From positions 1 to 28,678 of IMG/VR virus record IMGVR_UViG_3300044644_002590: a stretch of DNA of 28,678 nucleotides. The stretch is one strand, 5' to 3'. Of this stretch, positions 1 to 26,861 are shown piece by piece (position 1 is the first letter of the stretch; every line of letters starts with the position of its first letter). The notes under the pieces are model-generated. The model was not told the DNA's origin. It was given only the letters and a program-made list of their open reading frames with translations, and did no database searches. This DNA is from a virus. The translations under genes and the position numbers were made by a program.

Positions 1-2
1 TA

Positions 3-287: not shown

Positions 288-288
288 G

Positions 289-316
289 TTGTCTTTTTTG
301 TTTCAAAAGCTATACT
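289..316 (+). promoter_or_regulatory. Sigma70-like promoter for gp46
   Basis: TTGTCT (289-294), a 16-base spacer and TATACT (311-316) lie in the 41-base gap before gp46. The predicted transcription start, about 7 bases after the -10 box, is near 323, only about 6 bases before the ATG at 329. No Shine-Dalgarno sequence is present. The -10 and following bases (TATACTAGA) resemble those upstream of the polymerase (TAAAGTAGA). Confidence 0.5.
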
Positions 317-328
317 AGACTTGGCTAA

Positions 329-2125: not shown

Positions 2126-2163
2126 TCTTTTTTATTATACTTTGTAATTAATCTTTATATATT

Positions 2164-3399
2164 ATGATGAATCAAATAGTAGATGTAGGCATTAAAAGTT
2201 TAATTGGAGCGCCGATTGGAACCCCATATGGAGTTCCGACACAAAATTTAGTCACTCGTACTGCACAACCTCCAGTAATTCCTCCACCAGCCATGCCTTC
2301 AACCGGTCTTAAGCGAGCCTTAAACTACTTGGCTGATTACGGTGGTTGTGGGTTTTATCGTTGCATGTCTGCTAATTTTTTGTTAAACATCAACCAAAAA
2401 GCTGTCATAACAGAATCTACAACTATGATTTTAGATGAACGGTTTTATCAAACCGTTGACTCCATTAAAGTACAAAGACAAGCAACAACATACCAAAAGG
2501 ACTTTTTATTTGCTCTTAAACAAATGGGAGAACGCACACAAAAACAAACTAAAATGATTTACGAAGTAGATGATGTAGTTTTTGCGGAAGATATTCCTAT
2601 TTACAATCGAAACAGAGATGCGTTTACTTCACCTGAAATTCAATCGTCCATTAAAGACATTCTTGGTATTATGGACGAAATTGTTGTTACAACCGATTAC
2701 TTTAAAGAATACATGTCATCAAAGATTGACAATAAAAAAATTACAGTAATTCCAAACTATCTTATGAAATGGTGGTTTGATAGATACTACAATCTCAATC
2801 AATTACTAAAAGCTTACGACAAAAACAAGAAAAAACCAATAGTTGCTATTTTTGCTTCAGGCACTCATTGTGATGTGCTTAACAGAACCAATCAACAAGA
2901 CGACTTTGCGTTTGTTGTGGACAATATTATTAAAACCAGAACTGAATTCAATTGGCATTTTTACGGTAGCTATCCATTGACGCTAAAACCCTTTATCGAC
3001 AAAGGAGAAATGAAATTCTTTCCATGGGTCCAGTTATCAGAATTTCCTGAAACTATGGCTAACTCTGGAGCTCAATTGACCTTTGCGTGTTTACAAGACA
3101 ATAATTTTAATCGTTGTAAATCCAACATTAAATTAATTGAAGCGGGTGCACTTGGTTTGCCATGTGTATGTCCAGATATGGTTACATACAAAGATGCTTT
3201 TTTGAAATACAAAAACGGAAATGAGTTTATTGATTGCATTAAAACAGCGTTAAAAAATCAAACAACATATTCAGATATGTGCAAAAAGTCACGAGCTTTT
3301 GCTGAAAAGTTTTGGCTAGATGATGATCACAATTTAATGAAACACTACGAAGTGTACTTTACTCCTTATAAATCTTCTGAAAGAAGATTTATCGTTTGA
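2164..3399 (+). CDS. Glycosyltransferase, GT4-like (GT-B fold)
   Basis: This 411-aa protein has features of phage GT-B glycosyltransferases. After a Pro-rich N-terminal 45 residues comes an N-terminal domain containing IYEVDDVVF (about 132-140) and a predicted domain boundary near TVIPNYL. The C-terminal domain contains NRCKSNIKLIEAGALGLPCV, the usual sugar-nucleotide-binding Glu-Ala-x-Ala-x-Gly-x-Pro region. It would move a sugar from a nucleotide donor to an unknown acceptor. Its place between gp46 and DNA polymerase invites comparison with T4, whose DNA glucosyltransferase gene bgt lies in the same replication neighbourhood. However, no hydroxymethylase for making a modified base is visible in the window, and a capsid or host-glycan target is equally possible. 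The start is ATG ATG at 2164; no Shine-Dalgarno sequence is present. Confidence 0.8.
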   Translation: MMNQIVDVGIKSLIGAPIGTPYGVPTQNLVTRTAQPPVIPPPAMPSTGLKRALNYLADYGGCGFYRCMSANFLLNINQKAVITESTTMILDERFYQTVDSIKVQRQATTYQKDFLFALKQMGERTQKQTKMIYEVDDVVFAEDIPIYNRNRDAFTSPEIQSSIKDILGIMDEIVVTTDYFKEYMSSKIDNKKITVIPNYLMKWWFDRYYNLNQLLKAYDKNKKKPIVAIFASGTHCDVLNRTNQQDDFAFVVDNIIKTRTEFNWHFYGSYPLTLKPFIDKGEMKFFPWVQLSEFPETMANSGAQLTFACLQDNNFNRCKSNIKLIEAGALGLPCVCPDMVTYKDAFLKYKNGNEFIDCIKTALKNQTTYSDMCKKSRAFAEKFWLDDDHNLMKHYEVYFTPYKSSERRFIV

Positions 3400-3423
3400 C
3401 ATTCTTAACATTTCGTCTAAAGT
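3396..3423 (+). promoter_or_regulatory. Sigma70-like promoter for DNA polymerase
   Basis: A consensus -35 TTGACA (3396-3401) overlaps the stop of the glycosyltransferase gene and is followed by a 16-base spacer and TAAAGT (3418-3423). The predicted start near 3430 leaves about 5 bases before the polymerase ATG at 3435. Confidence 0.5.
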
Positions 3424-3434
3424 AGAGAACGAAT

Positions 3435-5975
3435 ATGTATCGTTCAGCTTCTTATAATCCTTTTAATGAATCAGTATTTTTGCGTACGTGGACAGAAGAT
3501 GGGGACAGGATAGATACCGAAATACCGTTTAGACCGTACCTTTTCTTAGAGAAAGAAGGTTCGAGTGATGCAACGTCTATTTTCAAAACGTCGCTTGTAA
3601 AGAAGCAATTCAAAAACAGCATTGAGAGACGCAGATTCGTTGACAACACTGCAAACAAAAGAATATTTCACAATTTAGGTCCAGAGCAACAATTTCTTAT
3701 AGAAATGTATAAGGATCAAAATAATGATCCAGAATTTTCTCAATTTCCTCTTAAAATTTTCTTATTGGATATTGAGGTTGATACTACTTTTGAATCCGGC
3801 TTTCCTACTCCTGAAAAAGCAGCAGTTCCCATTAATTTAATTACTGTGTATGATAGCATTAAAAAAATTACACACACTTGGGGATTAAAAAACGAATACT
3901 CTCCTTCTATAGAGGATTGCGTTTATTATAGATGCAAAGATGAGCAAGACTTAATTTTAAGATTTGTGGATTTTTGGAAGTTGGATTATCCAGATGTTGC
4001 GTCAGGCTGGAATTCTCAAGGGTTCGATTTTCCGTATATTATAAATCGTTTTAGAAAAGTTTTTGGGGAAGATTTTATCAATCAGTTATCTCCGACAGGC
4101 AATGTCAGAGGAAGAAAAGTCTTTACTGATATGGGCAAAGAAACAACCATATGGTCGATCCAAGGCATATCCCTTTTGGATTATATGGACTTGTACAAGA
4201 CGTTTTCTCCAGGAGAAAAGGAATCATTTAGCTTGAATTATATTTCCGAATTAGAACTAGGCGAAGGAAAAATAGCACACAACGCTGTCAGTCTCGGAGA
4301 ATTAGCACAAACGGATTGGAAGACATTTGTAGACTATAATATACAAGACGTTCACTTGCTTGTGAGATTGGAAGAAAAGCTTAAATTTTTGGAAATTGCT
4401 AGAATACTTTCTTATAAAGGATGTACAAATTTCGAGTCAGCTTTAGGTAAAGTAGCAATTGTAACAGGAGCTGTTGCGATACAAGCTTCAAAGCAAGGTT
4501 ATGTCATTCCTACTTTTCCGAACAAAATTGATAGAGAGTCATACGAAGGAGGTTACGTAAGAGATCCAGAAAAAGGCTTGCAAAAAGCAATTGTAAGTTT
4601 TGACGTAAATTCTTTGTATCCAAATACAATTATTACGTTAAACATATCTCCTGAAACCAAACTAGGCAAAGTAATTGATCAAACAGACAAAGAAGTAGCA
4701 CTAGTTTTGTTAAACGGAAAATCTCACACTCTTTCTATTGATAAATTTCACACCTTTTTGAAAACCGAAAAAGTAGCACTTTCAAAAGCTGGTGTTTTAT
4801 ATTCTCAAAAAACAAAAGGGGTAATTCCGAACCTTATTGATCAAATTTACAAAGAGCGAGTAAATACCAAAAACGAATTAACTTTACTTAAAAAATTAAA
4901 AAAGTCAGACAAGCAAACCTTGCTTAAAATAACTTATTTAGACACGCTTCAATATACTTTTAAAATTTTATTGAATTCAATTTACGGTACATTTGCGAAC
5001 AAACATTCTTCGTTGATGGATATTGATAACGCAACATCAATTACGGTCACTGGCCAAAACGTGGCGAAAGCTGGAGCTGAAATTATTGATTGCTATCTAA
5101 AACAAAAATACAATATCGATAAGTCTTGCACCCTATATCAAGATACAGATTCGATTTATATTACAGTAAATCCATTTCTTGAAAAATTCCAAATTGATTT
5201 GCTTAACGGCAACGAAATTTCAGAAAAAGCCCACAAATTTGTTAACGAGCTTGACGAGATAGTAAATAAAGAAATTCTTGAGTGGGCAAAAAAAGAATTA
5301 TTTTCTGTAGATCCTCGCTACGTTTTTAAAAGAGAAGTTATTTCAGACGTAGGTATTTTTCTTCAAAAGAAAAGATATATACTCCACGTTTTAGATGTCG
5401 AGGGTGTACCGACCGATAAATTTAAATATACAGGAGTAGAACTTGTTCGTTCTACGACTCCAAAAAAAGTTAAAAAATTAATTGAGGATATAACAAAAAC
5501 AGCTTTGCTTACTCAATGTCGCAAAAAATCAAACGAGGTATATCAAAATTGCCACACATCATTTCAGGCACTAGACCCCAACGACATTGCAGCTAGAACT
5601 TCCATTAACAATTTAGAAAAATATGCAAATGGAGCATCTTTATACAAATTTAATAACGCTACTCCATCTCACGTAAAAGGGGCAATTGCGTACAATATTC
5701 TTATTAAAGAATTGAAACTAGACGATAAATTTGAAGCTATTCAAGCCGGTCAAAAAGTAAAAAAACTATATTGTGCTAAAAACAAATACGGATTGGATGC
5801 TATAACATACACCTCTATCTTACCGGAAGAATTTGGCATTAAGGTGGATTGGGATAAAATGTTTGCTAAGTTAGTGACTCAACCTATAGAAAGGTTATAT
5901 CAAGCAATTGGTTGGTCTTTGCCAGAGATAGGGAAAGAAATACAAACTGATCTGTTTGATTTATTTGCGAAATAA
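3435..5975 (+). CDS. 43: Family B replicative DNA polymerase (T4 gp43 type)
   Basis: Replicative polymerase with 3'-5' proofreading exonuclease; 846 aa against 898 in T4. The exonuclease motifs are all present: Exo I LLDIEVD (around residue 112), Exo II GWNSQGFDFPYI (around 195) and Exo III YNIQDVHLL (around 297). The polymerase motifs follow: motif A SFDVNSLYPNTI (around 390), motif B KILLNSIYGTFAN (around 513), motif C YQDTDSIYI (around 570) and the KKRY element after it. All catalytic Asp and Glu residues expected in these motifs are intact. The last residues, QTDLFDLFAK, look like a sliding-clamp-binding tail, which fits the gp45-like clamp encoded at 13368. It has its own promoter match and a start at ATG 3435. 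Confidence 0.97.
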   Translation: MYRSASYNPFNESVFLRTWTEDGDRIDTEIPFRPYLFLEKEGSSDATSIFKTSLVKKQFKNSIERRRFVDNTANKRIFHNLGPEQQFLIEMYKDQNNDPEFSQFPLKIFLLDIEVDTTFESGFPTPEKAAVPINLITVYDSIKKITHTWGLKNEYSPSIEDCVYYRCKDEQDLILRFVDFWKLDYPDVASGWNSQGFDFPYIINRFRKVFGEDFINQLSPTGNVRGRKVFTDMGKETTIWSIQGISLLDYMDLYKTFSPGEKESFSLNYISELELGEGKIAHNAVSLGELAQTDWKTFVDYNIQDVHLLVRLEEKLKFLEIARILSYKGCTNFESALGKVAIVTGAVAIQASKQGYVIPTFPNKIDRESYEGGYVRDPEKGLQKAIVSFDVNSLYPNTIITLNISPETKLGKVIDQTDKEVALVLLNGKSHTLSIDKFHTFLKTEKVALSKAGVLYSQKTKGVIPNLIDQIYKERVNTKNELTLLKKLKKSDKQTLLKITYLDTLQYTFKILLNSIYGTFANKHSSLMDIDNATSITVTGQNVAKAGAEIIDCYLKQKYNIDKSCTLYQDTDSIYITVNPFLEKFQIDLLNGNEISEKAHKFVNELDEIVNKEILEWAKKELFSVDPRYVFKREVISDVGIFLQKKRYILHVLDVEGVPTDKFKYTGVELVRSTTPKKVKKLIEDITKTALLTQCRKKSNEVYQNCHTSFQALDPNDIAARTSINNLEKYANGASLYKFNNATPSHVKGAIAYNILIKELKLDDKFEAIQAGQKVKKLYCAKNKYGLDAITYTSILPEEFGIKVDWDKMFAKLVTQPIERLYQAIGWSLPEIGKEIQTDLFDLFAK

Positions 5976-5988
5976 CATAAATTAATTT

Positions 5989-6255
5989 GTGAGTAAAAAT
6001 ACACATTTAGATGCACTAACTAGCCATGAATTGTATTACACTCTTATTTCGATTTCCCAAGAAGATTACTATTTACAGGAATTTTTAGAAACCAATTTGA
6101 TGGAAGATTTGCTATACACGCTGGATGTATACGATATTATTTACATTGCTTCAGATGATCGAATTTTATTGACATCAAAAGGAGAAAAATTATTACAATA
6201 TTTATATTTCGATGTTGAAATTGAAAAATCTAATGTTAAATTATATAAACTATGA
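5989..6255 (+). CDS. Small protein with possible winged-helix fold
   Basis: An 88-aa acidic protein read from a GTG at 5989; the only codon between it and an in-frame TAA is TTT, so GTG is the first usable start. The C-terminal half (LLYTLDVYDIIYIASDDRIL then LTSKGEKLLQYL) has the helix-hairpin-helix pattern of a winged-helix domain, with TSKGEKLL resembling the helix after the wing. It lies 13 bases after the polymerase gene and shares an ATGA overlap with the next gene, so it is probably translated from the polymerase transcript. Function is unknown; the fold is inference. Confidence 0.7.
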   Translation: MSKNTHLDALTSHELYYTLISISQEDYYLQEFLETNLMEDLLYTLDVYDIIYIASDDRILLTSKGEKLLQYLYFDVEIEKSNVKLYKL

Positions 6256-6632
6256 ACCAAACAAACAATAAACCACTAACGGTGTTTTTGGACACCATCG
6301 GCAGAACAATTATCGGTAAAGTCGTTGCAGAAACAGACGAAGCCGTTTCAATTGAAAATCCAGCAGTTGTGCATGTACAACCAAATCCACAAACAAACCA
6401 ATTACAATTACAAATTCTACCTTTGTTCTTTAGAGAATTTCAAGCTGATCGGAACGAACCAACTGTTTGGAATTATCGCAAATCAAACATTACTCTTTCT
6501 GACGATGTTACGTTTGCAGTACAATTTATTTCTCAATACGAGCAAATGTTTCGTCAAGTAGAAGCCACTCCTCAAACTCAGCCAGAGCCTCAATTAGTTA
6601 AGCTTTTTGACGAAGAAGAGGAAGCGAAATAA
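6252..6632 (+). CDS. Conserved T4-like phage protein of unknown function, Sm-like beta fold suspected
   Basis: A 126-aa protein with an N-terminal beta-rich part (TVFLDTIGRTIIGKVVAETD, then SIENPAVVHVQPN) and a C-terminal part ending FAVQFISQYEQMF before an acidic tail. This pattern matches my memory of a small conserved protein of T4-like marine phages with the same GRTIIGKVV and ENPAVVxVQPN style of sequence. The strand pattern suggests a small barrel such as an Sm-like fold. It overlaps the previous gene by ATGA and is the last gene before a strong terminator at 6658, so it ends the polymerase transcription unit. No specific function can be given. Confidence 0.75.
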   Translation: MNQTNNKPLTVFLDTIGRTIIGKVVAETDEAVSIENPAVVHVQPNPQTNQLQLQILPLFFREFQADRNEPTVWNYRKSNITLSDDVTFAVQFISQYEQMFRQVEATPQTQPEPQLVKLFDEEEEAK

Positions 6633-6657
6633 TTTAGTCTTGTATATTGTATATCAT

Positions 6658-6689
6658 AATCCCACTCTTCGGAGTGGGATTTTTTTTTT
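6658..6689 (+). terminator. Rho-independent terminator with TTCG tetraloop
   Basis: A perfect 10-bp stem (AATCCCACTC paired with GAGTGGGATT) closes a TTCG loop (6668-6671) and runs into ten T residues (6680-6689). It lies in the 94-base gap between 6632 and uvsX and ends the polymerase unit. A promoter match follows directly. Confidence 0.93.
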
Positions 6690-6691
6690 AG

Positions 6692-6719
6692 TTGAAATTG
6701 AGTTTAATTGTCGTATGCT
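6692..6719 (+). promoter_or_regulatory. Sigma70-like promoter for uvsX
   Basis: TTGAAA (6692-6697), a 16-base spacer and TATGCT (6714-6719) follow immediately after the terminator. The predicted start near 6726 abuts the uvsX ATG at 6727, so the transcript would be leaderless. The boxes are not perfect, but a new promoter is needed after so strong a terminator. Confidence 0.5.
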
Positions 6720-6726
6720 TTTTTAG

Positions 6727-7815
6727 ATGAGTAATTCACTTAAAGATATTTTTGGCTCCGTTGACAAGCTTAATCCTGACGGAGGAATGATGGACGAAAC
6801 TTCGATATCAACGCCTTCAGATTGGATCGATACAGGTTCTAAAGCACTAAATGCTATTATTTCAGGTTCCTTATATAAAGGAGTTCCTGTCGGAAGAATT
6901 ACAGGTTTTGCTGGGCCATCAGGTGCAGGAAAAACGCTTATTATTAACAAAATTATGGCCAACGCTCAAAAGAAAGGCTATATTTCAGTTATTTGGGATT
7001 CAGAGGTCGCTGTTGATAAAGATAGCGCTAAAAATGTTGGTTTAGATTTAAAAAAGACAAAATACTACCCAGTCGAAACAATCGAGGAATGCAGAAACCA
7101 AATAAGTGCGTTTTTGGATAATGTTATTGCAGCAAATGACCCAAAGCTCAAATTTATCGTATCTATAGACTCTCTTGGAAACCTCGCGTCATCAAAAGAA
7201 ATTGAGGATGCCCGTAAAGGTAAAGATGCAGCAGATGTAGGACAAAGAGCTAAAGCAACAAAGAGTATGATGAGATCAATTACTTACAAAGCTGCTAAAG
7301 CCGGAGTTCCGATTCTTTTTTCAAATCACATTTATGAAGGAATGGAAATGTTTCCAAGCTTGATTAAAAATCAAGCTGGAGGAAAAGGTCCAATTTATTT
7401 GGCCTCTGTGTTGGTACAACTTGCTATACGTAATGAAAAAATTTCCGAAAATCCAGATGAAAAATCAATTGCAATTTCTAACAACGTTTCCGGCGTAACC
7501 ATGTCAGCAATGACAGTTAAAAATCGTATTGTGCCTCCCTTTCTTAAAACGGAGTTGTATTTGAATTTTAAAACAGGACTCGATGAAAATACAGGCCTGT
7601 TTGATATTGCTTTGGCTTTAGGTATTATTGAACAGTCTGGTAAGACATATCAATTTCAAGGAGAGAGTGTAGGATACCGAAAGAACCTTGAAAAGGATGT
7701 CGACTTTTGGAAGAAGGTGTGTCCAATTTTAGAACAAAAACTCCGAGAAGAATTATGTTATGGTTCAACTGATACATCCAATCAAGAAGATCAACTAGTT
7801 GATGATGACGAATAA
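6727..7815 (+). CDS. uvsX: Recombinase UvsX (RecA/Rad51 family)
   Basis: Strand-exchange ATPase that pairs ssDNA with homologous duplex in T4-type recombination-dependent replication and repair. At 362 aa it is slightly shorter than T4 UvsX (391 aa). The Walker A is GPSGAGKT (residues 63-70) and Walker B is FIVSIDSLGNL (from about 143). A Glu in IWDSEVAVD, on the strand after the first helix, fits the catalytic position of the family. The C-terminus is acidic (EDQLVDDDE). The gene starts 38 bases after a strong terminator, almost on the predicted transcription start, and its end overlaps the helicase gene by 14 bases. UvsX, helicase and DHH genes form one overlapping unit. Confidence 0.95.
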   Translation: MSNSLKDIFGSVDKLNPDGGMMDETSISTPSDWIDTGSKALNAIISGSLYKGVPVGRITGFAGPSGAGKTLIINKIMANAQKKGYISVIWDSEVAVDKDSAKNVGLDLKKTKYYPVETIEECRNQISAFLDNVIAANDPKLKFIVSIDSLGNLASSKEIEDARKGKDAADVGQRAKATKSMMRSITYKAAKAGVPILFSNHIYEGMEMFPSLIKNQAGGKGPIYLASVLVQLAIRNEKISENPDEKSIAISNNVSGVTMSAMTVKNRIVPPFLKTELYLNFKTGLDENTGLFDIALALGIIEQSGKTYQFQGESVGYRKNLEKDVDFWKKVCPILEQKLREELCYGSTDTSNQEDQLVDDDE

Positions 7816-9172
7816 TAAAACTCAATCCAAATTAGATTTAGATTATTTTGAGTCAGTATTATTATATAATGCTTTAACTGATTCTGAATATTTAAGTTCC
7901 ATTATATCATATACAGATCCTTCGTTTTTTGTAGACAAAAATATCGGCAAAGTAATTGATTGTATATCCCTTTTTTTTACAGAAAGAGGTACAGTACCGT
8001 CATTGACGGAAATAAAAGCAAGATTTGTCAGCGAAGAAGACAAAAAAGCGCTTGCTGAAATTAAAACTAAATTGAGTGGTTTGCAGGGACCGTTTAACAA
8101 AGAAGAACTAATTTCAAATACAGAAAAATTCTTAAAAGAACGATTGGTCTACAAGACAGTTTTAAACGTTGCAGAAAACTTTTCGAATCAAACATCAGCT
8201 TTAGATTCTATTTTGTTAGACTTCGAAAAGGCTTACAATATTTCTTTGAAGGAAAACTTAGGACATTGGTATTTCGAAGACATCGACAAGCACATTAAAG
8301 ATCTAACCACCGTTTACAATCCACTTCCAACTAGTTGGAAGTTTTTTGATGAAAAGACCGAAGGCGGCCTTTTTCCTAAAACACTCACAGTTTTTGCTGG
8401 CCAAGTCAATGTAGGAAAATCTATAGTTTTAGGAAATTTAGCAACAAACATGCTTTTGGCTGACAAAAACGTACTTCTTATCTCCTTAGAGATGTCTGAG
8501 TTTATGTATTCAAAACGCATATCCACTCAATTAACGCAAATTCCACACAACGATTTAAAAACTTACACTGACGAACTCTCAGAACAAATATCTCATATTA
8601 AAAACCGAGTAAACAGCCGTCTAGTAATTAAAGAATATCCACCAAGAAGTGTTACCATACGTCATATTGATTCATTTATCACCAAACTTAAACATAAAGG
8701 ATTTTGCCCTGATATAATAGTAGTCGATTATATTAATTTGATTCACCCGATAGCTAAAAACCTTAATTCTTACGAATCAATTAAAGAAATCGCAGAACAT
8801 TTGAGAGGGTTGTCATTCAAATATAATTTGCCCATTGTAAGCGCAACACAACTTAATAGAGGTAGTTTCAATACATCTTCTCCTGGAATGGAAGGAATTG
8901 CTGAATCAATTGGGTTAGCGGCAACGTGCGATGTAATATGCTCATTGTGGCAAGAAGAGGAAGACCGAGAGTTAGGAATTATTAATATGGGTATGCAAAA
9001 AAATCGTTTCGGTCCCAATTTCGGTCATTCTGCTTTTAAGTGCAATTACAACACTCTAACACTAAAAGAAACATCTACTGATTATTTTGCCCAAGATGGG
9101 GACTCCACAGAAGATGTTGTAAACAATACCTCTACAGCATTAAATATGTTACAAGTTAACGCAAATGAATAA
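7802..9172 (+). CDS. 41: Replicative DnaB-type helicase (T4 gp41)
   Basis: Hexameric 5'-3' helicase that opens the fork and binds primase. The first 150 residues are the helical N-terminal domain. The RecA-like motor follows with Walker A AGQVNVGKS (around residue 200), the linker LLISLEMSE, and Walker B IIVVDYINLI, then an ATQLNRGS sensor typical of DnaB. I chose ATG at 7802; a TTG just before it is also in frame but is less likely, and 7805 is a second ATG. The gene overlaps the end of uvsX by 14 bases and the start of the DHH gene by 8 bases (ATGAATAA), so translation is probably coupled. Length (456 aa) is close to T4 gp41 (475 aa). Confidence 0.94.
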   Translation: MMTNNKTQSKLDLDYFESVLLYNALTDSEYLSSIISYTDPSFFVDKNIGKVIDCISLFFTERGTVPSLTEIKARFVSEEDKKALAEIKTKLSGLQGPFNKEELISNTEKFLKERLVYKTVLNVAENFSNQTSALDSILLDFEKAYNISLKENLGHWYFEDIDKHIKDLTTVYNPLPTSWKFFDEKTEGGLFPKTLTVFAGQVNVGKSIVLGNLATNMLLADKNVLLISLEMSEFMYSKRISTQLTQIPHNDLKTYTDELSEQISHIKNRVNSRLVIKEYPPRSVTIRHIDSFITKLKHKGFCPDIIVVDYINLIHPIAKNLNSYESIKEIAEHLRGLSFKYNLPIVSATQLNRGSFNTSSPGMEGIAESIGLAATCDVICSLWQEEEDRELGIINMGMQKNRFGPNFGHSAFKCNYNTLTLKETSTDYFAQDGDSTEDVVNNTSTALNMLQVNANE

Positions 9173-10052
9173 TGAACAAACAATACAAGTTGTTACACAT
9201 TCAGACTTAGATGGAGTAGTAAGTTATTTAGTTCTTTGTTGGTTGTATGGAAAAAAATTAAATGTTCTTCCAACCACTCCCGCAAAATTAGAACAAGATT
9301 ATAACTCTTTAATTTCCTCAGGAAAAGTTTGGGATAAACTTTATTTTTTAGATCTTGATGTTTCCAAATTAGGAGAATCTATAGATAAACAAAATACAGT
9401 AATATTAGATCACCACAAAACAAACATATTTCCATTTAAGCATGCCTTGGTTAGAATATACAATGAAACCTCTTGTGCAAAATTAATATACGACACGTTT
9501 TTTAAAAACACCAATAAATCAGTATCAAGCGCTCAAAAAACATTAATAGCTTTAGCTGATGATTGGGATTCTTCTGCTAAACAAACTCCTTTATCAGAAG
9601 AATTAAACATAGTCTATCATTCTTTATCAAATAAATTTAATTCTTTTGTTGAAGATTATTACAATGGGTTTGTTCGTTTTGATAAATTTAAAACGAACGC
9701 AATTTTGTTGTACAAAAAACACTGCAGAGAATATTTAAACGAATTAAATCCTTTTATAGGAAATATTGATTTTGAAAACAACAAGAATGTTAAAGTTGGA
9801 GCAGTTTTTTGTAAAAAATTTGTACAAGAATCGTGTGATTGGTTATTTAAAAACCACGGAGTCGACGTTGCAATTGCAGTCATTATTGATCAAAAGAGAA
9901 TTGCAGTAAGACGAAGTTCAAACAACAATACAATTGATGTATCAAAATTTGTTCAAAGAATTGCTTCTGGAGGCGGCCATGAAGCAGCAGCTGGAGGTAA
10001 TTTAACAGAAGAATTTGTTGAGTTCACAAAAATGTTGAAACCTTTAAGTTAA
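9165..10052 (+). CDS. DHH-family phosphoesterase
   Basis: A 295-aa protein with the DHH-DHHA1 architecture of RecJ, NrnA and related metal-dependent phosphodiesterases. Motif I is HSDLDG (residues 12-17), motif II includes LDLDVS (62-67), motif III is LDHHKT (81-86) and a further Asp pair is in ADDWD. The C-terminal DHHA1 signature is GGGHEAAAGG. All expected metal ligands are present, so it should be active, probably on short oligonucleotides or ssDNA ends. Its 8-base overlap with the helicase gene suggests a role in DNA replication or nucleotide recycling. NrnA-like nano-RNase and RecJ-like exonuclease remain alternatives; the short length favours the NrnA type. Confidence 0.88.
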   Translation: MNNEQTIQVVTHSDLDGVVSYLVLCWLYGKKLNVLPTTPAKLEQDYNSLISSGKVWDKLYFLDLDVSKLGESIDKQNTVILDHHKTNIFPFKHALVRIYNETSCAKLIYDTFFKNTNKSVSSAQKTLIALADDWDSSAKQTPLSEELNIVYHSLSNKFNSFVEDYYNGFVRFDKFKTNAILLYKKHCREYLNELNPFIGNIDFENNKNVKVGAVFCKKFVQESCDWLFKNHGVDVAIAVIIDQKRIAVRRSSNNNTIDVSKFVQRIASGGGHEAAAGGNLTEEFVEFTKMLKPLS

Positions 10053-10062
10053 ACTCTAAGTA
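10035..10062 (+). promoter_or_regulatory. Possible sigma70-like promoter before 10070
   Basis: TTGAAA (10035-10040), 16 bases, TAAGTA (10057-10062), then ATG at 10070. The spacing repeats that at uvsX. The -10 is weak, so this could be chance in AT-rich DNA. Confidence 0.35.
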
Positions 10063-10069
10063 GATCAAA

Positions 10070-10447
10070 ATGATAGACCAGTATTTTGATGATTTGGATA
10101 CTTCTGAAGCTAACCCTCTCGATAAAATTCACTCAAAAGAATTTGCTGAAGGCCTTATGAAGGCTGGTTCATTTATTTCTATGCTGGAAAACAAAAGAAT
10201 AAATGTTACAGGATTATTTGCCTTGCTCCTAGAAAAAAAAGATTACCAAGACTTTTTTGTTGAAATTACAGCTTCTGAAACTTTCAAACGCGCAATACTA
10301 TCTTTGTTGTATTTTTATCCTTCTCTAGTAAAATCTAAAATTACAAAAGCAGTAATTCGAAAAGTAAATGCAAAATCTTCAGCTAACAGAATTCGAAAAA
10401 TATCTCTACAACAAACATCTAGCGATATCAAGAATATCAAAAAATAA
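10070..10447 (+). CDS. Unknown protein in the gene 33 position
   Basis: A 125-aa protein, acidic at the N-terminus (DQYFDDLDTSEAN) and strongly basic at the C-terminus (SKITKAVIRKVNAKSSANRI), with predicted helices between. I do not recognise it by sequence. T4 has the order 33, 59, 32, with gp33 a 112-aa late-transcription coactivator; here two unknown genes of about the right size (125 and 223 aa) sit directly upstream of gp32. The synteny makes a gp33-like role a reasonable hypothesis but nothing in the residues proves it. Its last 80 bases overlap the next gene. Confidence 0.7.
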   Translation: MIDQYFDDLDTSEANPLDKIHSKEFAEGLMKAGSFISMLENKRINVTGLFALLLEKKDYQDFFVEITASETFKRAILSLLYFYPSLVKSKITKAVIRKVNAKSSANRIRKISLQQTSSDIKNIKK

Positions 10448-11039
10448 ACCATTCCGCCCAAAAGGTGATTTTTCTGACGTTAAGGACACAGACAAACACA
10501 AATTTTTAAAACGGATTTCTATTTTTTTACAAAAACACCCAGATGTTGATCACGAAACTTATTTCGTTTCTCCTTATAAACTTTATCCTGACGTTTCTTA
10601 TTTTGGGCTAGATTACTTTGCATCGATGAGAGCAATTAAATCCTACACTCTGTATAAGAAGCAGCAATTATTAGAAAATCCAGACAAACAAATTGATGAT
10701 GTAAACAAGTCTTTGAGATTTATTGCTAATTTTTGTATACAAAACAAAATGCATTTTCACAGATACCCTTTTCATAAGACAGCTGACTTGTACACATGGA
10801 TGCTGCACTATAAACAAAACAAAATAAACATTTATAGCTTATTCGAGTTTACTGACGTCCACTCGTCTTTGTCTGAAATTTCAGATGACACAAAAAGTTT
10901 TTTTGTGCATGATTTTATAACCCAATTTCACAACCTAAAAATGAAATACAATAACTCAAATCAAATTAAATCTTACGTAAAAGCGGCTTTTCCTGTACTA
11001 TCAAATTTTGTACAAAAAACGCTTGCCAAATCAAAATAA
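10368..11039 (+). CDS. Unknown helical protein in the gene 59 (helicase loader) position
   Basis: A 223-aa basic protein rich in Phe, Tyr, His and Lys, all-helical in appearance. T4 gp59, the helicase loader encoded just before gp32, is 217 aa and also helical, so position and size fit, but I see no clear sequence match. The only ATG before the middle of the protein is at 10368, giving an unusually long 80-base overlap with the previous gene. There is no in-frame GTG or TTG near the end of the overlap to offer a shorter version. Calling it a helicase loader is inference from synteny. Confidence 0.7.
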   Translation: MQNLQLTEFEKYLYNKHLAISRISKNKPFRPKGDFSDVKDTDKHKFLKRISIFLQKHPDVDHETYFVSPYKLYPDVSYFGLDYFASMRAIKSYTLYKKQQLLENPDKQIDDVNKSLRFIANFCIQNKMHFHRYPFHKTADLYTWMLHYKQNKINIYSLFEFTDVHSSLSEISDDTKSFFVHDFITQFHNLKMKYNNSNQIKSYVKAAFPVLSNFVQKTLAKSK

Positions 11040-11050
11040 TCAACTAAAAT
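11023..11050 (+). promoter_or_regulatory. Sigma70-like promoter for gp32
   Basis: TTGCCA (11023-11028), a 16-base spacer and TAAAAT (11045-11050) precede the gp32 ATG at 11060. The predicted start near 11057 would leave a leader of about 3 bases. A dedicated promoter makes sense for an abundant protein. Confidence 0.42.
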
Positions 11051-11059
11051 TAAAACTGT

Positions 11060-11977
11060 ATGAGCAATATCAATATTAAATCCATGTTCGATCAAATTAA
11101 ACAATCACTCTCTTCCGATAAAAAAGATGGAGGAGGTAACGGTCTTTATAAAGAAATTCTTAAATTTACTGCAGGTAACACATATCAAGTTCGTTTGGTG
11201 CCTAATGCGAATTCTCCAAAAGAGACAATCTTCCATTATTACAATCACGGTTGGAATTCAAATGCTACAGGAAAATACGTGACAGCTCTATGTCCAACTA
11301 CCTTTGGTGAAAGTTGTCCTATTGATGCTTACTATTTGAAAACATACCGTACAGGCACTCAATCTGAAAAGGATAATTCTCGAGTGTTGTCTCGGAAAGA
11401 AGGTTGGATGGTAAACGTATATGTTGTGTCTGATCCAGAAAATCCCGAAAATGAAGGTAAAGTAAAAATTCTTCGTTATGGCAAAGAGCTAGCTAAAATA
11501 ATTGAATCTGCTCTTGAAGGAGACGATTCTCAAGAGTTCGGTGTAGAAAAGGTGTTCGACGTGACGAACGGTTCTAGCTTGAGGATCAAGGTTGAAAATC
11601 GTTCAGGAAAGGATCGAGGTGGCAAACAAATGATTACGTATGCAGCTTCGAAGTTTTTGTCTCCTTCTAAGCTCGATGTTACAGAGGAACAATTAGATTC
11701 AATTTATAATGCAGCTCACGACTTGAAAGCTGTAAATAAGCCTACTACTCCAGCCGAAATGCAACGATTGCTTGACGAGCACTTTTTTAACTTGACGACC
11801 GGTTCAGTTGAAGAAGAAACTAATGACGATGAATATTCTTCTATTCGTAATGAAGCACCGACTTCAACAAAGCGAACCGAAACTTCTATAGAAACTTCGT
11901 TTGAATCCAAAACTGATATTAATGAAACAGACGAAACTACAGACGAGGCTTTGAAAAAGCTTTTGGCTGATCTTTAA
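11060..11977 (+). CDS. 32: Single-stranded DNA-binding protein (T4 gp32)
   Basis: Coats ssDNA at the fork and during recombination. The 305-aa protein is close to T4 gp32 (301 aa) and shares its core: the basic N-terminal segment, FHYYNHGWN near residue 60, and VVSDPENPENEGKVKILRYG, which matches the T4 DPAAPENEGKV segment. The C-terminus is long and acidic (ending EALKKLLADL), as expected for the protein-interaction tail. T4 binds zinc with His64, Cys77, Cys87 and Cys90; the aligned positions here are His63, Cys78, Cys86 and Asp89, so one Cys ligand is replaced. The gene has a promoter match just upstream. Confidence 0.92.
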   Translation: MSNINIKSMFDQIKQSLSSDKKDGGGNGLYKEILKFTAGNTYQVRLVPNANSPKETIFHYYNHGWNSNATGKYVTALCPTTFGESCPIDAYYLKTYRTGTQSEKDNSRVLSRKEGWMVNVYVVSDPENPENEGKVKILRYGKELAKIIESALEGDDSQEFGVEKVFDVTNGSSLRIKVENRSGKDRGGKQMITYAASKFLSPSKLDVTEEQLDSIYNAAHDLKAVNKPTTPAEMQRLLDEHFFNLTTGSVEEETNDDEYSSIRNEAPTSTKRTETSIETSFESKTDINETDETTDEALKKLLADL

Positions 11978-12034
11978 TAACAAACATAGTTGAAACATTC
12001 ACAAAAACACCTAAAATAAACACAAATAAAATAT

Positions 12035-12880
12035 ATGCCTAGAATCAAAACAAACGCGGACATCCCTGACATTCAAAACACAATTGACGGTTTTCCGAAA
12101 CTTTATATTCCCAAAGTAGGGTCTCGTAACATTATCGTTCCAATGGAAATCGTTAAACGTGACGGGACGGTAAATCCAACAAAAGCTACTATCAGTTTGT
12201 ATACCGATCTTACACCCGAAGTAAAAGGTACTAATATGAGTCGCTACAGGATCCTTGTCGAGGAAGCGATTGCTAACAAAACTCACAGAATTGATGAACT
12301 TATTTCGATTCTCCTTGACGAATGTAAAGATCGCCTAAAATCAGATAATGCATACATTAAGATTAAATTCGACTATTTCATGGTAAAAGAAGCTCCGGTT
12401 TCTAAAATTAAATCTCATATGTCTTACAAAGGAGCTTTTGAGGGTCGTCTGATTAACGGAGAAAAGCGTTATTATTTGAGTGCTAATGTTTTGTACGCTT
12501 CTCTATGCCCGTGTTCAAAGGAGATCAGCGATTACGGTGCACACAATCAACAATCATATGCTGACGTGACAGTAGAACTCAACAAAGAAAACTTACACAA
12601 CGGAAATAAATTCTGGTTTGAGGAGCTCATTGAAGCTGTAGAAAAGAGCGCATCAGCTCCAATGGTAAATGCTCTTAAGCGAGTAGATGAAGCATATCAA
12701 ACAGAACTCATGTATGAGAATCCCGTTTTTGTAGAAGACATGGTACGTCGAGTTGCTGAAAAACTTGAAGTTGATTTGGATAAACGAATTAATGATTACC
12801 TGGTTATAGTTAACCACTACGAAAGCATTCACGAAAGCGTTGCTGTAAGTGTTATTAACCCAGGGAGGGAACTTAGGTGA
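12035..12880 (+). CDS. folE2: GTP cyclohydrolase IB (FolE2)
   Basis: Converts GTP to 7,8-dihydroneopterin triphosphate, the first step of folate and of 7-deazaguanine (queuosine, preQ0) synthesis. The 281-aa length is normal for FolE2. The diagnostic segment SLCPCSKEISDYGAHNQQS (157-175) carries the metal/catalytic Cys and the conserved His170. The C-terminal ENPVFVEDMVRR (about 228-239) and HYESIHESVAVS segments also match the family. The usual second His of the ESIHxH stretch is Glu here. It is unrelated in sequence to FolE (type IA). It sits between gp32 and the clamp, inside the replication block, with no queC, queD or queE in the window. The TGA overlaps the next GTG. Confidence 0.92.
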   Translation: MPRIKTNADIPDIQNTIDGFPKLYIPKVGSRNIIVPMEIVKRDGTVNPTKATISLYTDLTPEVKGTNMSRYRILVEEAIANKTHRIDELISILLDECKDRLKSDNAYIKIKFDYFMVKEAPVSKIKSHMSYKGAFEGRLINGEKRYYLSANVLYASLCPCSKEISDYGAHNQQSYADVTVELNKENLHNGNKFWFEELIEAVEKSASAPMVNALKRVDEAYQTELMYENPVFVEDMVRRVAEKLEVDLDKRINDYLVIVNHYESIHESVAVSVINPGRELR

Positions 12881-13371
12881 TAACTGAAGACGGTATTGCC
12901 ACAGCAACAATAGCTCAGATCTTCGGGTCTGAGCTATTGCAGATTCAATCCAAAGCTCAAACTGATGCTGGAACTACACCTCAGTTAGTTACAATGGATC
13001 CTAAACAATTCTTGTTTACTGGCGGACAAAACAATCCACTAAATCAACAAAGACAACTTCAAGAACAGCGACTTCTGCAGTCTCTGCAGAGAGAAGCTGA
13101 AGCAGCTTATCCAATCCAACAACCCGAACCTCTTCCTTTACCACCACAACACTCTTTATCAGAACAAACAACCGTTGTTCCCATAGTTGCAGCTCCACAG
13201 CCTCGACGTCTATCATCTGATGTTCCGGCATTTTCTTTACCACAAAATGTTAAGCTGGATGTTTGGGAACGCATAGCTATGAGTTTGGAAACAATAGCTT
13301 ATTCTCTTCAAAACAATAAAGTTAGTAAAATTACTCCTAACAAAAGAAAAAAGATTAATAATTCTAAATGA
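12877..13371 (+). CDS. Gln/Pro-rich protein of unknown function
   Basis: A 164-aa protein read from a GTG at 12877 that overlaps the folE2 stop as GTGA. The middle (about 50-125) is low-complexity Gln, Leu and Pro with no clear domain; a short helix VWERIAMSLETIAYSLQ near 128-144 and a Lys-rich end follow. A purine-rich GGGAGGG at 12863-12869 lies 7 bases before the GTG and is one of the few Shine-Dalgarno-like signals in the window. A very strong hairpin (12908-12939) falls in codons 11-21, so the real start could instead be the in-frame ATG at 12994. The end overlaps the clamp start as ATGA. A disordered adaptor is possible, but nothing shows it. Confidence 0.65.
   Translation: MITEDGIATATIAQIFGSELLQIQSKAQTDAGTTPQLVTMDPKQFLFTGGQNNPLNQQRQLQEQRLLQSLQREAEAAYPIQQPEPLPLPPQHSLSEQTTVVPIVAAPQPRRLSSDVPAFSLPQNVKLDVWERIAMSLETIAYSLQNNKVSKITPNKRKKINNSK
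12908..12939 (+). other. Strong C(UUCG)G hairpin just downstream of folE2
   Basis: Bases 12908-12921 pair with 12926-12939 over 14 positions (13 Watson-Crick, one T-G) around a TTCG loop at 12922-12925. No T-tract follows, so it is not a standard terminator. It starts 28 bases after the folE2 stop and lies inside the first codons of the next reading frame. T4 mRNAs are known to use C(UUCG)G hairpins between genes; a role in mRNA stability or in limiting translation of 12877-13371 is inference. Confidence 0.85.
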
Positions 13372-14096
13372 AAGTAACTCTCAATAGGCAGCAAATTGTA
13401 GACAGTATTTTAACTCCCGCTTCGAAAATTGCTGATAACCTACAACTAGAATTTGTCACAGAAAACAACAAACAATTTTGCAAAACTATTACACATTCTA
13501 GTGATAATTCGGTAATATTTTTAGCCAAAATACCTTGCGTTTTTGATAGTGAGTTTTCAGCAATTATTCCTGAATGCAAGACGTTTTTACGTTTGTTTTC
13601 AAACGTTGAAGAAGAGGAAATTACTTTATTTTTAAATATCAATTCGATTGTCTATCAAACACAAAAAATATCATTTAAGTACCATTTGTTAGATGAATCA
13701 TATATTATTCACAAAAAACCATTTTCGGAAAGCAAGCTGAACAGCTTAGAATTTGATACGACATTTAGAGTAAACAAACAAAAAATAAACGAAATAGTAA
13801 AATACAATTCGATTATTCCTGAAGCCGAAAAAGTCTATTTCTTTACAGAAGAAGAAGGAAACGTTTTTGCTAAAATTGGTGATGAACAAAAAGCAAACAC
13901 GAATGAGTTAACTTTAAACGTAACAGATAGATTTACAGGCACTGCAATAAACACTAATTTTCCTCTTAATGTACAACATGTACTACTATTTTCATTCTCT
14001 GAAAATGAAATAATGATTTCTGTGAATCAACAACTTAAAATTTTTAAGTTTGAAACTAGTTATTCTAAATACATCATTTCTGGTTTAATCAAGTAG
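13368..14096 (+). CDS. 45: Sliding clamp (T4 gp45-like)
   Basis: A 242-aa protein close in size to T4 gp45 (228 aa), the trimeric processivity ring that also activates late transcription. The repeated pattern of helix (RQQIVDSILTPASKIADNLQ) followed by strands (FCKTITHSSDNSVIFLAKI), repeated in the second half (VNKQKINEIVKYNSI then FFTEEEGNVFAKIG), fits two clamp domains. The end of the DNA polymerase (QTDLFDLF) provides a matching clamp-binding tail. It overlaps the previous gene by ATGA. The clamp loader genes 44 and 62 are not in the window. The call rests on fold pattern, size and context. Confidence 0.75.
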   Translation: MKVTLNRQQIVDSILTPASKIADNLQLEFVTENNKQFCKTITHSSDNSVIFLAKIPCVFDSEFSAIIPECKTFLRLFSNVEEEEITLFLNINSIVYQTQKISFKYHLLDESYIIHKKPFSESKLNSLEFDTTFRVNKQKINEIVKYNSIIPEAEKVYFFTEEEGNVFAKIGDEQKANTNELTLNVTDRFTGTAINTNFPLNVQHVLLFSFSENEIMISVNQQLKIFKFETSYSKYIISGLIK

Positions 14097-20671: not shown

Positions 20672-20863
20672 ATGGAAACTCTGCATGTGTTTGAAATTGT
20701 AAACAAAAACCAAAATTTTAAATCAATTGAACTAAAATCTAAAATTACTATTGAAAGCGAAGCAACGTTAAGTGATGTTCTATACGCGTTTGAGCGTTTT
20801 TTGCAAGCTGCTGGATATCGTTTGCCTGAAAATAGTCATTTAGATTTCACTGTTGATGAATAA
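20672..20863 (+). CDS. Small acidic protein of unknown function
   Basis: A 63-aa protein with a strand-rich first half (HVFEIVNKN, IELKSKITIESEATL) and a helix DVLYAFERFLQAAGY before the end LPENSHLDFTVDE. Proteins ending in this pattern (AFERFLxAAGY...L) are frequent small phage proteins, but I know no function. It shares the 8-base overlap ATGAATAA with the dCMP deaminase gene, so the two are probably translated together. Confidence 0.75.
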   Translation: METLHVFEIVNKNQNFKSIELKSKITIESEATLSDVLYAFERFLQAAGYRLPENSHLDFTVDE

Positions 20864-21272
20864 ACGAATTTCGTGGGAAGAATATGCGCTAAGAATAGCC
20901 CAAGCAGCTGCTCTCCGATCTGAAGATCGGTATGTTCAAGTCGGAGCTACGGCTTTAGATTACTCAAATAGAGTAATTGGAGTGGCTTATAACGGATTAG
21001 GCTCCGGAATAACAGCACCTGAGTCGTTTTGGGAGGACAGAGACAAAAGACGTCCGTACATGATTCATGCTGAAATTAATTTACTTTCTTTAATTAAGAG
21101 AGATGAATGCAAGCTTTTAGCTTGTACTCTTTTGCCATGTTCTTGCTGTGCAGCAGCCATAGTTGCAAATGGTATTAAAAAAGTAGTCTATAAAGACGAA
21201 TACTTTAGAGATAACCAATCACTTGAAATATTTAAGTTTAACGGAATTGAATGCCAACAAATCACATTTTAA
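20856..21272 (+). CDS. cd: dCMP deaminase
   Basis: Zinc-dependent deaminase that turns dCMP into dUMP for thymidylate synthesis, as T4 gpcd does. The 138-aa protein has the N-terminal ALRSEDRYVQVGA typical of dCMP deaminases, the catalytic HAEIN (His71, Glu73) and the zinc motif PCSCC (Cys95 and Cys98). ATG at 20856 is chosen over the upstream TTG because it overlaps the previous stop as ATGAATAA, a junction seen four more times in the window. A short hairpin (20915-20930) lies in the coding sequence. T4 gpcd is longer (193 aa). A second deaminase-like gene follows immediately. Confidence 0.92.
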   Translation: MNKRISWEEYALRIAQAAALRSEDRYVQVGATALDYSNRVIGVAYNGLGSGITAPESFWEDRDKRRPYMIHAEINLLSLIKRDECKLLACTLLPCSCCAAAIVANGIKKVVYKDEYFRDNQSLEIFKFNGIECQQITF

Positions 21273-21672
21273 GCGTTTAACTGAAGTAGCAGAATCTTTA
21301 ATAGATTGGAACGACGGAACACGTTGTAGGCATTTTTCTTTCATTGTCTACAAAAAACGTATTATAGCAATTGGTACCAATAAACCAAAAACTCATCCTA
21401 CTAATCTCATTAATAGAAAAATTTCAGTACGTACTGGAGAGGATTTTTCGGATCAAAAGCATGTGTGTAGCGAATTTAACGCAATTACAAAACTAAAGCG
21501 ATTAACTAATATAAACACAAAAAAATGCACATTGGTTAATCTTCGATACGATAGAAATCAAAAACTCAATTTATCTTGTCCGTGCATGAGTTGTAAAAAT
21601 TTGCTTCGGTATTTTGAATTCAAAAACGTCTTTTATTCTGACGCAAAAGGCAATTTTCAGATGTTAAAATAA
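21223..21672 (+). CDS. Second cytidine-deaminase-fold protein
   Basis: A 149-aa reading frame with a deaminase zinc site in a different form from its neighbour: HVCSEFNAI supplies Cys82 and Glu84 (Cys where dCMP deaminases have His), and SCPCMSC supplies Cys121 and Cys124. The CxE form is the one used by cytidine deaminases, although the rest of the sequence is unlike the standard cytidine deaminase. Upstream parts (CRHFSFIVYKKRIIAIGTNKPKTHP) fit the first strands of the fold. No in-frame ATG exists; TTG at 21223 or 21247 must start it, both inside the dCMP deaminase gene. Substrate unknown: free nucleoside, nucleotide, or a nucleic acid base are possible. Confidence 0.78.
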   Translation: MKYLSLTELNANKSHFKRLTEVAESLIDWNDGTRCRHFSFIVYKKRIIAIGTNKPKTHPTNLINRKISVRTGEDFSDQKHVCSEFNAITKLKRLTNINTKKCTLVNLRYDRNQKLNLSCPCMSCKNLLRYFEFKNVFYSDAKGNFQMLK

Positions 21673-21709: not shown

Positions 21710-22417
21710 ATGATTTTGTTAGATGACGATAAGCCTATTTTGTTTTTAGGAGACCACCATGGCAATTGGAATGAACTTTTCTATATTTTAGATAGAAAAA
21801 ATGTAGAAAATTGCAATATAATTTCTGTTGGAGATTTAGGAATTGGATTCAAATACAAAAAAGAATACGAATATTCCCTTTGTGAAAAGCTTAATGAAGA
21901 GTTTAAGAAAAAAAACGTTAAATTTTACGGTATTAGAGGAAATCACGATAATCCTTATTTTTTTAACGGAAGCAATAAAATCCGTTTCGATAACTTCGAA
22001 TTAATCGAAGATTATGCTATTGCGAAACATAAAGAACAAACAATACAATTTATTGGCGGAGCAATCTCTATTGATCGGACGGGTAGAAAGGAAGGAATTT
22101 CTTATTGGGAAAACGAAGGTGTAAATTTTGATAAAAACAAGTGCAAACAGGTCGATATTTTAGTAACTCACACTGCTCCAACTTGGTGTTTTCCTCAGCA
22201 ATTTAATGAAATCGTTTACGGATGGGCTAGAGAAGATGCCTATTTGATTGAAGATTTAACAGACGAAAGGTCGGTTATGAACGAAATATTTAGATTATGT
22301 GAACCTAAACTTCACATATACGGTCATTTTCATAGCTCTTGGTCTGAAGAGATTAATAAATGCAAACACAGACTTTTAAATATTAATGAAATATGGGAGA
22401 ACGTATATGAGCAATAA
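21710..22417 (+). CDS. Calcineurin-like metallophosphoesterase
   Basis: A 235-aa two-metal phosphoesterase with every motif of the family: GDHHGNW (13-20), SVGDLGIG, RGNHDNP, a THTAP His and YGHFHS near the end. Enzymes of this superfamily remove phosphates from proteins, nucleotides or nucleic acid ends, so the motif set does not fix the substrate. The stop overlaps a 26-residue membrane peptide, which in turn overlaps an RNA ligase gene, making a three-gene unit with its own promoter match. Removal of a 2',3'-cyclic or 3'-phosphate before ligation is an attractive hypothesis from context, not from residues. T4 uses gp pseT, of a different family, for this. Confidence 0.9.
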   Translation: MILLDDDKPILFLGDHHGNWNELFYILDRKNVENCNIISVGDLGIGFKYKKEYEYSLCEKLNEEFKKKNVKFYGIRGNHDNPYFFNGSNKIRFDNFELIEDYAIAKHKEQTIQFIGGAISIDRTGRKEGISYWENEGVNFDKNKCKQVDILVTHTAPTWCFPQQFNEIVYGWAREDAYLIEDLTDERSVMNEIFRLCEPKLHIYGHFHSSWSEEINKCKHRLLNINEIWENVYEQ

Positions 22418-22487
22418 GCAACGCTTAATTCTTGCAATTGCAATTATTATATTATTTCTTATTGCAGGAACATACATTTTTATATGA
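22407..22487 (+). CDS. 26-residue single-span membrane peptide
   Basis: A tiny frame, ATG 22407 to TGA 22487, coding MSNKQR followed by about 20 strongly hydrophobic residues (LILAIAIIILFLIAGTYIFI). It overlaps the phosphoesterase end by 11 bases and the RNA ligase start by 4 (ATGA), and it fills exactly the gap between them. That tight fit and the clean transmembrane composition argue it is translated. Function unknown; it could anchor or regulate a partner, or act as a small toxin-like peptide. Confidence 0.65.
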   Translation: MSNKQRLILAIAIIILFLIAGTYIFI

Positions 22488-23587
22488 AAATAGTTTTACC
22501 GAACATCAAAAACGGTTTTCGTCACAATTTGTGCAGCTTTTGCGGAAAGGATGCAATTTTAGTCACTCCGGAGATGGATGCAAAGTGGAGTGATAATAAT
22601 TTATTGTTTCGTTCCTTAATAGTATCTAAAGACGGAGAAGTTCTTTCTTCTGGCTGGCCAAAATTTTTCAACTACAACGAAAAACCTGAATGTTATCCAA
22701 ATCCCCAAAACTACAAAGATTGGACTTTTTCTGACAAAATAGATGGTTCATTAGTTATTTGTGATTATGTGAACGGCCAGTTTTCTATGAGAACTAGAGG
22801 TACTGCAAGCTACATTACACAAGACAACGCAAAAGATTTTGAGTTATTATTTAAAAAATACCCTAAAATTATACAAACTTTAAAAGAATCCCCTCATATT
22901 AGCTTATTAGTCGAAATTGTTACTCCGAACAACATTATTGTTGTGAGATCAAACGAAATAGAATTTTATCTGATCGGAGCTATTAACAAAAACGACTTAA
23001 CTGTCATTTCTACATCTGAGTTAACGGATTTGTGGAGAAAAATTGGGCCAATGCCAACTCCCCAAACGTATTATTACAGCAGTGTTGCAGACTTATTGAA
23101 AATAGCACAAGACATTAAAAACTGGAAGGGTAAAGAAGGTATTGTCATCTCTTATAACGACAATCAAAACAGAATTAAGTTAAAATCAGATTGGTACTTG
23201 TTTTTACATAGAGTTAAATCTGAGTTAAGCTCCTTTAACAATCTTATTAATTTTTATCTCGATGAAGACATGCCGTCTTTGGATAAATTTTACGAAATAA
23301 TTCAAACTAAATTTGATTACGAAATAGCAGAACAGCTAAAGTTAGAAATTGCAAATATATGCAAACTCGGTGATCAAACCAAACAAATTATTAAAAAAAG
23401 TAGAGAATTTGCATCAAGTATAAAACGTTTTGATAACAGAAAGCAACAAGCAGAGTACATATTTACAACTTACGGTAAATCTTTTTTGTCATCGATTGTG
23501 TTTTGTATGTTAGATAACAAACCATTAACGAAACAACAACTTTTTAAGCTCATGGAACTTCAGCGAGAAACAACCAGTCATGAATAA
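22484..23587 (+). CDS. rnlA: RNA ligase (T4 Rnl1-like)
   Basis: ATP-dependent RNA ligase that seals 3'-OH and 5'-phosphate ends; in T4 it repairs tRNA cut by host anticodon nucleases. Length 367 aa is near T4 RnlA (374 aa). The nucleotidyl-transfer motif I is KIDGS with Lys85 as the AMP-binding residue, followed by SMRTRG, then LLVEIV (motif IIIa region), EGIVISY (motif IV) and KLKSDWY (motif V). The helical C-terminal half would be the tRNA-contacting domain of the Rnl1 type. It starts in an ATGA overlap with the 26-residue peptide and ends in an ATGAATAA overlap with the next gene. Confidence 0.9.
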   Translation: MKIVLPNIKNGFRHNLCSFCGKDAILVTPEMDAKWSDNNLLFRSLIVSKDGEVLSSGWPKFFNYNEKPECYPNPQNYKDWTFSDKIDGSLVICDYVNGQFSMRTRGTASYITQDNAKDFELLFKKYPKIIQTLKESPHISLLVEIVTPNNIIVVRSNEIEFYLIGAINKNDLTVISTSELTDLWRKIGPMPTPQTYYYSSVADLLKIAQDIKNWKGKEGIVISYNDNQNRIKLKSDWYLFLHRVKSELSSFNNLINFYLDEDMPSLDKFYEIIQTKFDYEIAEQLKLEIANICKLGDQTKQIIKKSREFASSIKRFDNRKQQAEYIFTTYGKSFLSSIVFCMLDNKPLTKQQLFKLMELQRETTSHE

Positions 23588-26644: not shown

Positions 26645-26861
26645 ATTCGCATGTTACCACAAGCCAACTAAGTGTTGGGTGTTCTTCAGAGAAGATAAGC
26701 AAGGCATTCCAATGATTTGTTTGTGTCTAAAACCATCTGCAACAACATTTGAAAATAAAAAAGAGGCAGAAGAACTTTTAAAAAAATCTTCATTCAATGA
26801 CTCAGAAAATTATGGAGCAGAAAATTTTCTTGAATTTCAAATAAAAACTGCTAAACTTTAA
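26637..26861 (+). CDS. Small unknown protein
   Basis: A 74-aa protein with Cys and aromatic residues at the start (MNKFACYHKPTKCWVFFRED) and a charged helical end (NKKEAEELLKKSSF, FLEFQIKTAKL). ATG 26637 gives an ATGAATAA overlap with the previous stop. No family recognised. Confidence 0.65.
   Translation: MNKFACYHKPTKCWVFFREDKQGIPMICLCLKPSATTFENKKEAEELLKKSSFNDSENYGAENFLEFQIKTAKL

Follow-up and report, generated by a model that had tools for sequence, protein, structure and literature searches.

Modification of DNA with 7-deazaguanine derivatives is already known in phages, T4-like phages included (PMC6884629; PMC12028318), and through this pathway the DNA of phages is protected against restriction (PMC6884629). 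In phage 9g, which makes deoxyarchaeosine, a glutamine amidotransferase, QueC and a transglycosylase are found together with the preQ0 genes (PMC6884629). The T4-like Schizotequatroviruses (Vibrio phage nt-1, ValKK3) harbor FolE, QueD, QueE, QueC and a DpdA (PMC12028318), the latter being DpdA2 in nt-1 (PMC6884629). Campylobacter phages are highly modified by dADG and were described in 2019 by Hutinet et al. as lacking DpdA (PMC6884629).

The DNA analyzed here, called the window, comes from a T4-like phage sampled in environmental DNA; its 28,678 bases make up one complete IMG/VR fragment. Its folE2 gene encodes GTP cyclohydrolase IB, the type of GTP cyclohydrolase that does not need zinc, whereas FolE is the usual zinc-dependent type. 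We propose, with a probability of roughly 0.86, that FolE2 takes over from FolE the first step of a post-replicative 7-deazaguanine modification of the phage DNA that would guard it against restriction, all activities being predicted from sequence. The closest systems are those of Campylobacter phage CP220 and Flavobacterium phage immuto, which share with the window's clade QueD, QueE, a transglycosylase of the tRNA-guanine transglycosylase (TGT) fold that is 32-37% identical, a nearby kinase and a large genome. However, immuto has FolE instead of FolE2, and QueF without an amidotransferase match where the present clade has QueC and, encoded apart from it, a class-II amidotransferase; CP220 and immuto gave no match to this amidotransferase in a search run without a positive control. 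Phage 9g differs by a fused amidotransferase-QueC, which is two adjacent genes in the present clade, by FolE, and by a transglycosylase of another subfamily, and the Schizotequatroviruses differ by their canonical FolE and, in nt-1, by DpdA2. No publication linking FolE2 to a viral 7-deazaguanine pathway was found in the open-licence literature.

FolE2 and its place among the replication genes

The folE2 ORF (12035-12880, plus strand) starts with ATG and encodes 281 amino acids. The protein matches PF02649 ("Type I GTP cyclohydrolase folE2") with E=6e-67 and 226 bits for a cut-off of 25, and passes the NCBIfam equivalog NF010200 barely (217 bits for a cut-off of 215). Its nearest solved structures are the FolE2 proteins 2r5r, 8g6c and 3d2o. 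Residues C158, H170, E219, E234 and H266, which are invariant across 15 close viral sequences, align with Cys147, His159, Glu201, Glu216 and His246 of Neisseria gonorrhoeae FolE2 (3d2o), which we take to be the active-site and metal residues of that enzyme. The identification as GTP cyclohydrolase IB made in an earlier, sequence-only reading of the window is confirmed by these comparisons; the gene is a real one, and a zinc-independent activity is predicted for its product. Contamination by a cellular contig can be discarded, given the T4-like replication, terminase and tail genes found throughout.

The bacterial enzymes (GCYH-IB of Neisseria and Betaproteobacteria) are alike in family, length and active-site residues, but identity is at most 43% over the best 80 bacterial matches and the phage sequences form a branch of their own. 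The sequence-only reading expected a phylogeny to reveal the source of the gene; in a quick tree with long branches, whose deep part is unsure, the window FolE2 falls in an all-viral clade. A recent transfer from a host is not supported by this placement, nor by a best bacterial identity of 43% (among the best 80 of more matches). The tree suggests that FolE2 may have entered viruses at least three separate times. A separate viral FolE2 clade (L244, L247, L250-L261 and L264) is 34-38% identical and has no que genes within 10 kb of FolE2, and 10 viral sequences of the dereplicated FolE2 set carry Asn where the last active-site His would be expected. Annotated phage records searched for FolE2 gave three matches only, namely one faecal contig and two Staphylococcus records.

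As in the sequence-only reading, folE2 lies between a gp32 gene and a clamp-like gene, with a small ORF intervening on the downstream side. The upstream border of this cyclohydrolase slot is the gp32 single-stranded DNA binding protein (11060-11977, plus strand; PF08804 3e-18, phrog_224 6e-40). The small ORF (12877-13371, plus strand), for which the PHROGs search gave no match and which has no named function, has a GTG start overlapping the FolE2 stop, so that translational coupling is possible. The downstream border is the sliding-clamp-like gene (13368-14096, plus strand), which has no match in PHROGs; its clamp name comes from the sequence-only reading and from synteny, its family following FolE2 or FolE in relatives. 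Further upstream, all on the plus strand, are a gp46-like recombination nuclease subunit (329-2125; AAA_23 2e-6, SMC_N 8e-9 and synteny), a family-B DNA polymerase (3435-5975) and the UvsX recombinase (6727-7815), both assigned from the synteny map, and a DnaB-type replicative helicase of the replication block (7799-9172; PF03796 3e-26). On the other side, a dCMP deaminase (20853-21272; phrog_174) is followed by an overlapping second deaminase-like ORF, whose PF00383 match is barely above cut-off; the pair spans 20853-21672. A metallophosphatase (21710-22417) adjoins a T4-type RNA ligase 1 (22484-23587; PF09511), and a 43-base repeat of 98% identity (27483-27525 and 28166-28208) lies close to the right end of the window.

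Que genes of the same phage and of its relatives

The sequence-only reading took FolE2 to be without partner genes. Absence of partners inside the window means little, because the window is a 28.7-kb fragment, and the view of a lone FolE2 is ruled out by overlapping contigs. A scan of 2.9 million viral contigs collected 36 relatives. Two overlapping contigs belong to the window's own phage: G017 (30,634 bp) is 99.99% identical to window positions 1-12890 over 12,890 bp, and for G020 (40,800 bp) the identity is 100% across an overlap of 11,861 bp. Together they add 28.9 kb upstream, so that the phage is known over 57.6 kb in total. On both contigs, about 15 kb upstream of the window, QueD (phrog_2389, 7e-31; 28175-28645 in G017) adjoins QueE (phrog_2076, 1e-41); both were identified via phage families, since neither QueE against the bacterial QueE models nor QueD against the QueD model reaches the curated cut-offs. 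A P-loop kinase is found side by side with them. The apparent solitude of FolE2 was an effect of the contig end. QueC, the class-II amidotransferase, the transglycosylase and ThyX were not found in the 57.6 kb available for the window's phage; the missing pathway genes would be in its unsequenced part. Of the partners named in the sequence-only reading, queD and queE are present in the same phage, and queC and a TGT-fold transglycosylase in relatives only.

Joined records of relatives span 90-227 kb, those carrying FolE2 reaching 227 kb. Wherever the sequence allows the check, each pathway gene is tucked behind a replication gene, in the order gp46-queE, polymerase-transglycosylase-ThyX, UvsX-queD-helicase and gp32-folE2-clamp. 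QueC is near the primase, where a class-II glutamine amidotransferase is encoded as well, and also a glycosyltransferase. The window's phage departs from this layout: queE and queD have been relocated into one block that includes the kinase, and neither gene lies in the slots behind the polymerase and UvsX. The gap behind its polymerase (5975-6727), where relatives have the transglycosylase gene directly, holds two small ORFs; UvsX is followed directly by the helicase, where relatives have queD straight behind UvsX; and it is directly behind the gp46-like gene that relatives have queE. PTPS/QueD was detected in 14 and QueC in 8 of the 20 FolE2 records tested, whereas none of the 20 has a member of the TGT Pfam family (PF01702). 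Neither canonical FolE nor ThyA occurs in the 13 FolE2 records tested for them.

In the QueD of transglycosylase-carrying phages, two of the three usual zinc histidines are gone (SAHR to AFRQ, HGH to HGY), a point against the proposed pathway, although the catalytic Cys, Asp-His and Glu are kept. Considered with the predicted zinc independence of FolE2, this loss might reflect a reduced need for zinc; contrary to such an idea, the zinc motif of QueC is retained. Besides its divergent QueD, the relative G001 encodes another one of canonical type, in which every zinc histidine is present (133267-133815).

A transglycosylase family and the exchange of FolE2 and FolE

The transglycosylase of the relatives escapes the usual profiles, with no match to PF01702 or to phrog_887 and phrog_7068, the PHROGs named queuine tRNA-ribosyltransferase. 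When 107 conserved families were profile-compared with eight phage DpdA proteins, all scores were weak and the best, that of family 26, was an insignificant 9% probability. On inspection, its motifs are TGT-like. Family 26 has no Pfam match and is listed as "unknown" in PHROGs, but shares 37% identity with the immuto protein annotated as DNA guanine transglycosylase and 32% with CP220 gp056. Its isolate relatives are limited to immuto and the CP220-group Campylobacter phages, and Vibrio phage records gave no match. The AlphaFold model (pLDDT 91.9) was compared by Foldseek, and all 50 best matches listed are tRNA-guanine transglycosylases (E from 2e-6, probability 1.00). Model and homology to the immuto and CP220 genes together show that family 26 is to be filed under the predicted TGT fold; its action would be on DNA. 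On these grounds the reading of the clade as DpdA-free, which the silent TGT and DpdA profiles had suggested, is rejected. Family 26 presumably corresponds to the subfamily named DpdA3 by Cui et al. (2023), which reportedly allows complete guanine replacement.

All viral loci that had been retrieved were searched with HMMs built from the pathway families. Among 100 transglycosylase loci, which are not independent counts since some share one contig, FolE2 was found in 34, FolE in 30 and both in none; the remaining 36 have neither cyclohydrolase, partly because the sequence stretches are short. In the same set, QueD was found in 55 loci, QueE in 47, QueC in 31, the amidotransferase in 18 and the kinase in 49. 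Two pairs of loci differ by this one gene inside the que/dpdA cluster: L312 and L340 share 91-92% identity in both flanks, with FolE2 in the former (PF02649, 1e-69) and FolE in the latter (PF01227, 5e-44), and L320 and L310, with flanks 86-87% identical, show the same FolE2-versus-FolE difference. Beside gp32, the T4-like relatives G025 and G022 have FolE, and G023 has a very divergent FolE2. Judged from gene content, this pattern is what an interchange of two enzymes for one reaction would look like, and it ties FolE2 to the 7-deazaguanine pathway more than to folate.

Proposed role of the pathway, end product and likely host

In the proposed pathway, FolE2 would convert GTP to dihydroneopterin triphosphate, from which QueD would form carboxytetrahydropterin and QueE then 7-carboxy-7-deazaguanine. 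QueC, helped by the split class-II amidotransferase that is beside it in relatives, would yield preQ0 or the amidated archaeosine base. The TGT-fold DNA guanine transglycosylase would put that base in the place of guanine once the phage DNA has been replicated, and the DNA so altered would be shielded from host restriction enzymes. With queD and queE in the same phage and FolE2 in the slot of FolE, the DNA-modification role put forward in the sequence-only reading has probably been the right one.

That reading also named folate and host queuosine, both of which have been weakened by the lack of a TGT-family protein and by the FolE2/FolE interchange. FolE2 could produce dihydroneopterin triphosphate mainly for tetrahydrofolate and hence for thymidylate during replication, dCMP deaminase supplying dUMP to ThyX. 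Several relatives do carry ThyX, which also uses folate, next to replication genes, the window has the dCMP deaminase at 20853-21272, and a 2026 virome paper places viral folE2 under folate metabolism (PMC13288924). Yet ThyA is absent from all 13 records (the folate-linked genes covered being ThyA and ThyX), no ThyX was seen in some FolE2 records (G012 and the window), and FolE2 and FolE replace each other inside que/transglycosylase clusters, which makes a mainly folate-directed role improbable; FolE2 may still contribute to folate on the side, because relatives carry ThyX. It is even less probable that the pathway raises preQ0 or queuosine in host tRNA, aiding translation instead of modifying DNA. 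FolE2, QueD, QueE and QueC are all common to queuosine synthesis, and a 2019 survey proposes this function for phages having preQ0 genes without DpdA (PMC6884629). Such a function fits poorly with relatives that encode, directly behind the DNA polymerase, a TGT-fold transglycosylase of a kind annotated as DNA-acting, and with 20 FolE2 records devoid of the TGT Pfam family.

The kinase (26731-27375 in G017; 11335-11958 in L291) brings in another route, in which a P-loop kinase would phosphorylate 7-deazaguanine in nucleoside or nucleotide form, ready for insertion by the polymerase of the phage. The predicted fold of the protein is that of a deoxynucleoside/dTMP kinase, its gene adjoins queE in the window's phage and in most loci follows the transglycosylase at a distance of about 0.5 kb, and CP220 and immuto have homologs beside their transglycosylases. 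The same kinase family is, however, present in Streptomyces phage Coruscant with no que gene in the 40 kb read, and the transglycosylase of the cluster makes insertion at the nucleotide level unnecessary; among the explanations weighed here, this one is the least probable.

Under the preferred reading, post-replicative exchange of the base, the genes around QueC bear on the end product. The amidotransferase of the relatives (GATase_6/7 barely above cut-off, with an invariant Met-Cys start) is a separate protein encoded next to QueC or one gene off, and by its likeness to Gat-QueC of phage 9g it points to the archaeosine base (PMC6884629). A GT-A glycosyltransferase (PF13712; L060:14770-15480, equal to G001 54770-55480, and G023 34652-35326) is encoded next to QueC and the amidotransferase, or close by, in all eight QueC records, and is absent from FolE-type clusters. 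Guanine might be replaced, perhaps nearly completely, by an amidated 7-deazaguanine from the split amidotransferase-QueC pair and then glycosylated by the GT-A enzyme beside QueC, although this outcome is rather unlikely. Nearly complete guanine replacement has reportedly been found with related transglycosylases. In G023 (125 kb), a close relative by QueE, no QueC was found over the 125 kb and the only TGT-like gene, directly adjoined by the glycosyltransferase, is very divergent; the end product may therefore differ in the sub-clade of the window.

Shine-Dalgarno motifs are scarce upstream of the genes of the window and its relatives (4-13% of genes versus a background of 8-17%). Phages of Flavobacterium and Cellulophaga show the same scarcity, which those of Vibrio, Campylobacter and Streptomyces do not. 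From this sequence feature, a Bacteroidota host is likely for the clade.

With regard to phage biology, these loci indicate that the enzyme at the entry to 7-deazaguanine synthesis is exchangeable in phages, FolE giving way to FolE2 while the rest of the pathway is kept, and a lone folE2 in a virome is not to be filed as folate metabolism. They also expose a widespread transglycosylase family that is unnamed in Pfam and unknown in PHROGs. A glycosylated 7-deazaguanine, if true, would parallel the glucosylated hydroxymethylcytosine of T4. A large T4-like group, as yet uncultivated and with Bacteroidota as its probable hosts, thereby joins the phages that likely carry replaced guanine.
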